From positions 1 through 56,050 of the forward strand of contig JAFDAJ010000004.1 in the NCBI GenBank assembly GCA_019313915.1: a stretch of DNA of 56,050 bases, given 5' to 3'. Made by a program: the position numbers and the translations under genes. The notes below the pieces were generated by a model. It made no database searches, was not told where the DNA came from, and worked only from the letters and a program-made list of their open reading frames with translations. This DNA is from Deltaproteobacteria bacterium. Lineage in GTDB: Bacteria; Myxococcota_A; Polyangia; Polyangiales; Houyiibacteriaceae. Below, piece by piece: positions 2,765 to 16,467 of this stretch; positions within the stretch are counted from its first letter, which is position 1; each line of letters starts with the position of its first letter.

Positions 2765-3598
2765 TTACGCAGAGACGCCGAAGTCTCGGAGCGCGTCGTT
2801 GAGCGTGACCTTCTTGTCCGTGCTTGCCTTTCGCTGGCCGATAATCAGGGCAACCGGGATTTGGTATTCGCCAGCGGGGAACTTCTTGGGGCGGGTGCCG
2901 GGAATGACCACCGAGCGCGGAGGGACGTAGCCCCGGGTTTCGACGGGCTGTGTGCCGGTTACGTCGATTATCTTCGTGCTGGAGGTGATCACGACGTTGG
3001 CGCCGAGGACCGCCTCTTCACCGATGCGGGAGCCTTCAACGACAATCGAGCGGGAGCCGAGAAAGGCACCATCTTCGATGATCACCGGCTTTGCGCCGGG
3101 AGGTTCGAGGACACCGCCGAGGCCGACACCTCCCGAAAGATGAACACCCTTGCCGACCTGTGCGCACGAGCCGACCGTGGCCCAGGTATCGACCATCGAG
3201 CCTGCACCTACGTACGCGCCGATGTTCACGTAGCCGGGCATCAGAATGCTGCCGGGCTCCATGTGAGCGCCGTAACGAATCGTACCGGGCGGTACGACTC
3301 GTACGCCCTGCTCATCGAGGTGCTTCTTGAGGGGAATCTTGTCGTGGTACTCGTACGCGCCGACCTCGACGCGTTCCATCCCGCGGATGCCGAAGTAGAG
3401 AAGGATCGCCTGCTTGGTCCACGCATGGACGGTCCACTCACCGTCGTCACCGCGCGTCGCGACGCGAACCTTCCCCTTGTCGAGCAGCTCGATTGTCTCT
3501 TCGACAGCGCTGCGGTACTGCGCACCTGCGAGCTTCGAACGGTCTTCGAATGCCTGCTCGACGAGTGTGCGCAACTGGTTTTCGCTCGTGTCGACCAT
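2765..3598 (-). CDS. dapD: 2,3,4,5-tetrahydropyridine-2,6-dicarboxylate N-succinyltransferase
   Basis: DapD transfers succinyl from succinyl-CoA to tetrahydrodipicolinate in the succinylase branch of lysine and diaminopimelate synthesis, in the cytoplasm. The product (277 residues) has the usual length, an N-terminal helical part, and a long left-handed beta-helix of hexapeptide repeats from about residue 105 to 215, with GSMVDTWATVGSCAQ and GGVGLGGVLEP typical of the family. It starts only 3 bases after the ndk stop and is probably co-transcribed with it. Confidence 0.95.
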   Translation of the reverse strand: MVDTSENQLRTLVEQAFEDRSKLAGAQYRSAVEETIELLDKGKVRVATRGDDGEWTVHAWTKQAILLYFGIRGMERVEVGAYEYHDKIPLKKHLDEQGVRVVPPGTIRYGAHMEPGSILMPGYVNIGAYVGAGSMVDTWATVGSCAQVGKGVHLSGGVGLGGVLEPPGAKPVIIEDGAFLGSRSIVVEGSRIGEEAVLGANVVITSSTKIIDVTGTQPVETRGYVPPRSVVIPGTRPKKFPAGEYQIPVALIIGQRKASTDKKVTLNDALRDFGVSA

Positions 3599-14158: not shown

Positions 14159-14722
14159 ATGGCAGATACCTCAGACATCAAAAAAGGCTTCAAGATGCTC
14201 ATCGACGGCGTTCCCTTCGCGGTCGTCGACCACCAGTTCGTGAAGCCAGGTAAAGGCCAGGCTTTCGTCCGCACTCGCATCAAGAACATGATGACCGGCG
14301 CCGTGATCGACCGGACGTTCAAGAGCGGCGAGAAGCTAGAGAAAGCCGACACCGAAGAACGCACGATGCAGTATCTCTACCCTGAGGGCGATGCTCGCGT
14401 TTTCATGGACACCCGGAGCTACGAGCAGATCTCGCTCTCGAACGAGCAACTCGGGGACAATGTGCACTATCTCCTCGATGGGACGGAGGTGGACATAATG
14501 CTCTTTGAGGGGCGCCCCATCGGCGTGACTCCCCCCACCTTCGTGGAGTTGCTGGTCACCGAGACGGAACCTGGGTTCAAGGGCGACACCAGCAGCAACA
14601 CCACCAAGCCCGCAACTTGCGAGACCGATCTAGTGGTCAACGTGCCGCTCTTCGTCAATGCCGGCGACAAGCTGAAAATCGACACGCGCACGGGCGACTA
14701 CGTCGAGCGCGTCAAACGCTGA
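14159..14722 (+). CDS. efp: translation elongation factor P
   Basis: EF-P binds between the P and E sites of the ribosome and rescues stalling at consecutive prolines. The 187-residue product has all three beta domains. The tip loop reads KPGKGQAF; Lys32 corresponds to the lysine that EpmA beta-lysylates in E. coli. The next gene is epmA, 8 bases downstream, which supports that modification here. The ATG at 14159 gives the standard N terminus. Confidence 0.97.
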   Translation: MADTSDIKKGFKMLIDGVPFAVVDHQFVKPGKGQAFVRTRIKNMMTGAVIDRTFKSGEKLEKADTEERTMQYLYPEGDARVFMDTRSYEQISLSNEQLGDNVHYLLDGTEVDIMLFEGRPIGVTPPTFVELLVTETEPGFKGDTSSNTTKPATCETDLVVNVPLFVNAGDKLKIDTRTGDYVERVKR

Positions 14723-14730
14723 GTACAGCA

Positions 14731-15651
14731 ATGGCGGCACCAGCCGATCCCGCTGTCCTGCAGGTCTTGGCGCTGCGGGCCGTGGCGCACCGCTCTATTC
14801 GGCGCTTCTTCGAAGAACGTGATTTCGTCGAGGTAGAGACGCCGGCGATCGTGCCTTCCCCCGGTCTCGATGTGCATCTGGCAGCATTCGAGGTGAGAAA
14901 CCCGAAGGGGGAACCGGCCGGATGGCTCGCGACGAGCCCCGAGTACCAGATGAAGCGTCTGCTGAGCGCCGGCGCCGAACGTATCTTTCAGCTGGGCCGA
15001 AGCTACCGCGCGGACGAGCACGGCCGACATCACGAGCGAGAGTTCACGATGCTCGAGTGGTACCGCGCCGACTCGACATCGGACGACGTGATTCGTGACA
15101 CCGAGGAGTTGGTCGCATTCGTGGCCAACGCGCTCACAGAAAAAGGGGAACTGTCCCCTTTTTCTGTGCCTTGGCAACGGCTGACGGTGGATGAGGCGCT
15201 GCAGGTTCATGGCGACGTTGCGCTCGACGCGGTGATACACGACGAGGAGCGATTCTTTCGCGTGTGGGCCGAGGAGGTTCAGCCGCGGCTCGGCAATGAG
15301 CGACCCGTTATCGTGACGGATTGGCCGTCCTCGATGGCGTCGCTTGCGAGGCTCAAACCAAACGGAATGGCGGACCGGTTCGAAGCATTCTTCCGGGGCG
15401 TGGAGCTCTGCAATGGCTTTGGCGAACTGACCGACGCGGCGGAACAGCGACGACGCTTTGAACGGGACCAGGCCGACCGCCAGGCCGCAGGCGCGCCGGT
15501 CTATCCGATCGACGAGCGGTTTCTGGACGACTTGGAGCGGGGCATGCCGGAAAGCGGTGGCAACGCGCTCGGCGTCGACCGGTTGTTGATGCTACTGCTC
15601 GGCGCCGACTCAATTCAGGCCGTTATGCCGTTTCCCGAAGAACGACTGTAG
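14731..15651 (+). CDS. epmA: EF-P lysine ligase EpmA (PoxA/GenX)
   Basis: EpmA is a truncated class II lysyl-tRNA synthetase paralogue that attaches (R)-beta-lysine to EF-P. The 306-residue product lacks the anticodon-binding domain, as expected. It shows class II motif 2 (FQLGRSYRADE) and motif 3 (GNALGVDRLLMLLLG), plus the VELCNGFGEL substrate segment. It pairs with efp just upstream. EpmB, which makes the beta-lysine, is not in the window. A perfect palindrome (15135-15168) lies within the gene and encodes residues about 135-146 (EKGELSPFS) in a loop before LTVDEAL, without breaking the frame. Confidence 0.93.
   Translation: MAAPADPAVLQVLALRAVAHRSIRRFFEERDFVEVETPAIVPSPGLDVHLAAFEVRNPKGEPAGWLATSPEYQMKRLLSAGAERIFQLGRSYRADEHGRHHEREFTMLEWYRADSTSDDVIRDTEELVAFVANALTEKGELSPFSVPWQRLTVDEALQVHGDVALDAVIHDEERFFRVWAEEVQPRLGNERPVIVTDWPSSMASLARLKPNGMADRFEAFFRGVELCNGFGELTDAAEQRRRFERDQADRQAAGAPVYPIDERFLDDLERGMPESGGNALGVDRLLMLLLGADSIQAVMPFPEERL
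15135..15168. repeat. perfect 15-bp-arm palindrome inside epmA
   Basis: The left arm (15135-15149; CACAGAAAAAGGGGA) and right arm (15154-15168) are exact reverse complements around a 4-base loop (ACTG). The composition (A run, G run) is unlike the surrounding GC-rich coding sequence. The frame stays open. I saw no second copy in this window. It looks like a small palindromic insertion of the type that can survive inside coding sequence. Confidence 0.9.
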
Positions 15652-15681: not shown

Positions 15682-16467
15682 CTACCGCTTGCGTTCGGCG
15701 GCTTTCGCGCGCTCCCACATCTCATCGAGCTCCGGCTCGTCGTAGTCGCGAAGGCTCTTGCCCTCGGCGTGGGCGGCGACCTCGCAATGCCGGAATCGGG
15801 AAGAGAAACGATGGAGCGAACCGCGAAGCGCGGCCTCGGGGTCCAGCCCTTGCTTACGGCCATAGGTCGCGAGGGCGAACAAGAGATCACCGAGCTCGTG
15901 CTCGAGGGCGGTCATGTCTTGGTCCGCGGCGGCCTCGTCGAGCTCTTTCAGCTCTTCATCGACCTTGTCACGCGGACCGCCGGCGTCGGGCCAGTCGTAG
16001 CCAACGGCGCTGGCCTTTTCCCCGATCCGCACCGCGCGCAGAAGACTCGGCAACGCCACCGGCACGCCGCTCAGCGCGCCTCGCTCCTTCTTCTCCTTGG
16101 CCTTGATCGCTTCCCATCTGTTGATTGCGCCGCTCGCGTCGTCGACTTCTTCGTCGCCGAAAACCCATGGGTGCCGGCGCACCAGCTTCTCGCATATCGC
16201 ATCGACCACGCCATCGATGTCGAACCATCCCTTTTGGTCCGTGAGCGCAGCCTGGAAAACCACTTGTAATAGAAGGTCGCCCAGCTCTTCCCGGAGCATC
16301 TCCGGTGTTCCATGGTCGATCGCATCGACGACCTCATGCGCCTCTTCGATCACGTACTGCCGGAGGGTCTCGAGCGTCTGTTCACGATCCCAGGGGCAGC
16401 CGTTGGGGCCAAGCAATGTGCGCATCAGCTCGACGAGGCGCGTTAGCGACTGACCTTGTTCACTCAC
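15682..16467 (-). CDS. mazG: nucleoside triphosphate pyrophosphohydrolase MazG
   Basis: MazG hydrolyses NTPs and dNTPs to monophosphates and limits (p)ppGpp or damaged nucleotides. The 261-residue product has the usual two tandem MazG domains. The N-terminal one has the metal-binding EEAHEVVDAID and EELGDLLLQVVF motifs, and the C-terminal one has EELKELDEA and HELGDLLFALATY. The start is GTG with no clear ribosome binding site. It converges on epmA with a 30-base gap. Confidence 0.94.
   Translation of the reverse strand: MSEQGQSLTRLVELMRTLLGPNGCPWDREQTLETLRQYVIEEAHEVVDAIDHGTPEMLREELGDLLLQVVFQAALTDQKGWFDIDGVVDAICEKLVRRHPWVFGDEEVDDASGAINRWEAIKAKEKKERGALSGVPVALPSLLRAVRIGEKASAVGYDWPDAGGPRDKVDEELKELDEAAADQDMTALEHELGDLLFALATYGRKQGLDPEAALRGSLHRFSSRFRHCEVAAHAEGKSLRDYDEPELDEMWERAKAAERKR

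Follow-up and report, generated by a model that had tools for sequence, protein, structure and literature searches.

A perfect palindrome inside the epmA gene of a Myxococcota-like genome is, in our reading, one copy of a REP/REPIN element confined to the genus, which landed in the gene once, as an inverted doublet, and was retained in a tolerant loop of the protein. The copy in the window (the whole stretch of 56,050 nt that was analysed) would be a deletion derivative of that doublet. We give this reading a probability of roughly 0.7. REPs carry "extragenic" in their name, and those found within genes have for the most part been catalogued genome by genome. In the present genus, with 19 genomes searched, the same insert in a translation-factor modification enzyme is met as an intact doublet, as decayed doublets, as half-deleted forms and as empty sites, and a lipoprotein-transporter permease contains REP-derived segments as well. 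This provides a tractable system in which to see how mobile hairpins become tolerated and then become protein sequence.

The palindrome is read in frame within a loop of EpmA

The palindrome consists of two 15-nt arms that are 100% complementary, separated by a 4-nt loop (CACAGAAAAAGGGGA, loop ACTG, then TCCCCTTTTTCTGTG), at the position and with the arms that an earlier note on this DNA had described (Table 1). It is the sole perfect hairpin of the 56-kb window with arms of at least 15 nt and a loop of 3 to 20 nt; no such hairpin was observed in 12 dinucleotide shuffles of the window, and about 0.002 are expected. The host gene encodes an intact class II synthetase-type EpmA, since its product scored 323.9 bits with the EpmA/GenX equivalog model TIGR00462 (cut-off, 286.9) and its predicted structure resembles the GenX structures 3g1z and 3a5z (TM 0.85). 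The best named database neighbours of this EpmA are Myxococcota MAGs. The palindrome encodes T136-EKGELSPFS-V146, in agreement with the in-frame EKGELSPFS of the earlier note. That note had also proposed modelling the loop. In an AlphaFold model (pLDDT 91.9), residues 136 to 146 form a coil between a helix (117-135) and a strand (149-152), and the length of this loop varies among EpmA homologues. The simplest reading would be toleration in a variable loop, and the insert is presumably neutral for function. An antisense frame of 180 aa (window 14698-15240, minus strand) also spans the palindrome and is probably a by-product of codon composition.

Table 1. Features of the window and of related loci (bare numbers are window positions; G, genome, G000 being the window genome; L, locus; C, contig)
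Feature	Location	Strand	Remarks
efp, elongation factor P	14159..14722	+	ORF; EpmA substrate; directly upstream of epmA and beside it in the loci of the genus
epmA, EF-P lysine aminoacylase (EF-P--(R)-beta-lysine ligase)	14731..15651	+	intact ORF, 306 aa; ATG at 14731, stop at 15651
Perfect palindrome	15135..15168	.	arms 15135-15149 and 15154-15168; loop ACTG 15150-15153
Insert-derived codons	15136..15168	+	in frame; EpmA T136-V146 (TEKGELSPFSV)
REP core AAAAAGGGGAACTGTCCCCTTTTT	15140..15163	.	24 nt; family consensus AAAAAGGGGACTGTCCCCTTTTT has 23 nt
mazG-like gene	15682..16467	-	ORF converging on epmA; named from sequence
lolC/E-type permease gene	L006:298-1998 (G000, C379)	-	linker with two in-frame REP cores
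RAYT gene of the window genome	L061:1060-1880 (G000, C443)		between leuS-like and mglA-like genes
RAYT-type gene of G013	L202:1180-1966 (G013, C95)		adjoins a purS-like gene; one inverted REP copy on each side
Sister repeat GGGGTCAGACCCC, G010	L354:2029-2041, 3162-3174, 3270-3282		at lolC/E and in nearby DNA
Sister repeat GGGGTCAGACCCC, G008	L346:2011-2023		at lolC/E
EpmA loop, G014			intact doublet, two perfect in-frame cores; EKGDSPLF...KRGLSPFS; EKGDSPLFPGVNSSSGKRGLSPFS
EpmA loop, G004, its sister G007, and G009			decayed doublets, same frames
EpmA loop, G018, G016			left-half remnants
EpmA loop, G000			one 24-nt core
EpmA loop, G008, G012, G017 and the G013 clade			without insert (DQPAPE[VL]QP)
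EpmA loop, G003, G010, G015, G001			without insert

The palindrome belongs to a new, genus-specific REP family

The 4.4-Mb window genome contains 55 exact copies of the 13-nt core GGGGACTGTCCCC and none of a reversed control pattern; this count leaves out the copy in the window, which has one extra A. With up to three mismatches over 21 nt, about 80 copies were found, a figure that rests on strand counts of 76 and 79, most copies matching both strands. The family consensus is TTAACCCTTTCAAAAAGGGGACTGTCCCCTTTTT, followed in full copies by GAAAGGGTTAA. With its 23-nt core and these copy numbers, the repeat fits the description of REPs as imperfect palindromes of 20 to 40 bp in high copy number. 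Among 58 genomes searched, 17 carried the repeat, all of them from the genus of the window genome; none of the 39 genomes outside the genus contained it, and it was not found in 2 of the 19 genus members. Most congeners have from a few to more than 100 copies. A literature search for the exact core sequences returned no paper with a match. We thus conclude that the dispersed repeat is a new REP family. Tandem hexamer arrays of the GGCACT/CACTGG type directly adjoin many of the REP copies (L015, L018, L067 and L078; also L216, L218 and L226 in G014).

The copies are mostly extragenic, and convergent gene pairs are their commonest setting. The median distance to the facing stop codon was 7 to 32 nt in four genomes; these figures are approximate because the codon-usage gene model was trained on the window. 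For the window genome, 66 copies were tested, and an intragenic location was confirmed for only three of them: the one in epmA and two in the linker of a lolC/E-type permease, with L020, L303 and L308 counted on neither side. The copies at L017, L290 and L313 were rejected as intragenic, since the frames spanning them have no Pfam domain and look like antisense frames, and so was the copy at L294, located ahead of where a GST-like gene probably starts.

In G014, 11 of 20 doublets are inverted with a 41-nt spacing around AAAGGGTTAACCCTTT, which is the commonest doublet there and has the architecture of a REPIN. Doublets are few in the window genome, where most copies are singlets. The RAYT-type gene of G013 exceeds the cut-off for PF01797 and reaches 75.7 bits with NF047646, just under the cut-off of 80; flanked as it is by the repeat, it is a candidate for the autonomous source of the family. 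A REP-flanked RAYT of this kind was looked for in the window genome and was not found, and no RAYT was detected in the REP-rich G016. The RAYT that the window genome does have is distant from that of G013 (35% identity) and is flanked, in inverted orientation, by diverged GGGGTAGATCCTGTCCCC-type repeats (GGGGTAGA[TG]CCTGTCCCC). Since these flanks resemble those in other congeners, this gene probably belongs to an old, separate REP system. Sequence, doublet architecture, genomic location and the RAYT-type gene between two copies together assign the element to the REP/REPIN class.

The EpmA insert is patchily distributed in the genus

We compared the EpmA loop, in the region after the helix ending in ...VA.AL, in the 19 genomes of the genus. 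The insert or its decayed remnants were observed in 7 of the 19 (Table 1), always in this single loop, with the same junctions and frames. The other 12 lack it, including the nearest sister (88% identical), which has the nine residues DQPAPELQP at the position of the insert. The earlier note had suggested searching the genome for the 34-bp sequence and comparing epmA among relatives, and had named uniqueness in the genome combined with conservation in all relatives as the outcome that would mark an ordinary part of epmA. This is not what we found, given the 55 other exact cores and the absence of the insert from the nearest relatives.

The junction offsets are identical on both sides in G000, G014, G004 and G009, and both halves are in the same frames. 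The two epmA cores are spaced at 46 nt in three genomes (G014, G004 and G007) and at 43 nt in G009, compared to the canonical 41 nt. The shared junctions and frames and the noncanonical spacing favour one insertion, later inherited or exchanged, over several. Trees were built from efp, epmA and mazG, and in a second version with lolC/E added. Monophyly of the insert-bearing crown species gave AU p values of 0.05 and 0.026, and monophyly of the DQPAPE[VL]QP species gave 0.025 and 0.0008. A simple vertical history with a single gain is therefore rejected, both possible monophylies being rejected or borderline. Since presence of the insert is patchy on the tree, one origin is tenable only if the insert was lost several times or alleles were exchanged. 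At least one process out of recurrent loss, exchange of short alleles and some renewed insertion must have been at work, and the shared features of the insert would point to one origin followed by loss or exchange.

A second host gene carries the repeat in a protein linker

The lolC/E-type permease of the window genome scored 324 bits with TIGR02212, below the cut-off of 362, and its FtsX domain is over the cut-off. In G012, the linker likewise contains two exact in-frame cores with the 66-nt spacing of the window genome. G013 and G016 have one in-frame copy each, and the copy of G017 is decayed. In G008 and G010, the linker carries the sister repeat GGGGTCAGACCCC, in which one A-T stem pair is swapped to T-A; other species have GGGGACAGTCCCC in the same region. 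This sister repeat was read inside lolC/E in G008 and, in G010, inside lolC/E as well as in nearby DNA beside the gene, with a GGGTTAA half; the linker copy of G010 thereby matches the extragenic repeat of G010 itself. It is conceivable, if rather improbable, that the REPIN-derived segments of epmA and lolC/E are no passive relics and are still being replaced, whether by new insertions, by conversion or by allele exchange with the genomic REPs. If so, a mobile hairpin family would continually re-edit the same protein loops within a genus.

Origin of the window copy and alternative explanations

We propose that the epmA loop was entered once, as an inverted doublet, by a non-autonomous hairpin of the type that RAYT transposases move, presumably with such an enzyme as its mobiliser. 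The insert would have been retained because it is open in the frame used and occupies a length-variable region of EpmA, where it is placed between helix and strand. Indeed, when read directly, all six frames of the REP core are free of stop codons. One forward frame of the REPIN centre does contain a stop, which would let only compatible frames survive; the GTTAA centre avoids a stop in the frame that is used. An in-frame deletion would then have fused the left half of REP 1 (frame EKG) with the second half of REP 2 (frame LSPFS), and the additional A in the loop would compensate for the difference in frame between the two halves. The window copy starts in the frame of REP 1 (GAA AAA GGG) and ends in that of REP 2 (CTG TCC CCT TTT TC), and its core, longer by one base, reconciles the two, which makes an in-frame deletion derivative of the doublet the most likely origin. 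A single REP that gained one base by simple insertion would account for the extra A just as well.

The patchy distribution on the species tree might also mean that the EpmA loop is a hotspot which received REPINs independently in different species, the window copy being a fresh single REP whose frame was mended by the extra base. Such a history is consistent with the coexistence of nearly perfect copies (G014, G018) and decayed ones in other genomes, and with the species-dependent occurrence of GGGGACAGTCCCC or GGGGTCAGACCCC in the lolC/E linker. Independent insertions would, however, have had to hit upon the same offsets on both sides in four genomes, with both halves in the same frames, and upon the 46-nt spacing common to three, and we consider them unlikely. 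A chance palindrome in ordinary epmA sequence would fit the variable length of the loop among homologues, but the genomic copies, the chance expectation per window and the absence from the nearest relatives rule it out for practical purposes.

We also considered that the hairpin might be more than tolerated and might serve the epmA mRNA, for instance in pausing of translation, in mRNA stability or in attenuation. The RNA hairpin is very stable, its predicted folding being far stronger than that of shuffled sequences (z -5.5), and its A-tract, GC stem and T-tract are similar to an intrinsic terminator. Moreover, the arms run past the REP core: the flanks outside it are ACAG/CTGT in the window versus GCCG/CGGC in G014, so that two pairs differ and the changes are complementary. 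Templated quasi-palindrome repair would give such changes equally well, which is suggestive only, and the hairpin is missing or decayed in most congeners. A consensus scan for terminators found one, against a shuffle mean of 0.8, and we rejected a functional intrinsic terminator in epmA on this shuffle-level result. A role in the mRNA is thus very improbable, and a single REPIN insertion with later deletion in the window lineage remains our preferred reading.

Comparison with known systems

The earlier note had proposed a small palindromic element tolerated in frame, of the kind known from Rickettsia. The dispersed, in-frame element absent from the nearest relatives held up; the Rickettsia type did not, the element being of the REP type. 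Rickettsia palindromic elements (RPE), the classic in-frame palindromes, measure 105 to 146 bp and are specific to Rickettsia (reviewed in Delihas 2007, PMC2229807). The present element resembles them in being a palindrome inserted in frame into a conserved enzyme, where it seems to be tolerated, and in its absence from relatives. It differs in its core of 23 to 24 nt (doublet of about 66 nt), its Myxococcota-like genome and its mostly extragenic location, and RPE proper were rejected on size and sequence. The evidence thus supports an element that works like an RPE but belongs with REP/REPIN.

With the REP/REPIN elements and their RAYTs (Bertels and Rainey 2011, PMC3116915; Nunvar 2010, PMC2817692), the family shares short extragenic palindromes that number from tens to hundreds, doublets in inverted orientation whose fixed spacer lets them form a long hairpin and, in one congener, a RAYT-type gene with these REPs on both sides. 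It differs in its new core with a palindromic GGGTTAACCC centre, and in that the window genome has mostly singlets and no cognate RAYT was found there. REPs of the GTAG and CGTC types, often as dimers, have been described wholly inside conserved ORFs, including tRNA synthetase genes, and some of these ORFs are the sole such ORFs in their species (Di Nocera 2013, PMC3733652). REPs within genes, also as dimers and in conserved genes, are therefore already published. The consensus read from our copies, TTAACCCTTTCAAAAAGGGGACTGTCCCCTTTTTGAAAGGGTTAA, contains neither a GTAG nor a CGTC tag (nor their complements) and falls outside the tagged superfamilies. What we describe is a new family and an unusually traceable case, in which one genus displays the same inserts in intact, decayed, deleted and absent states.
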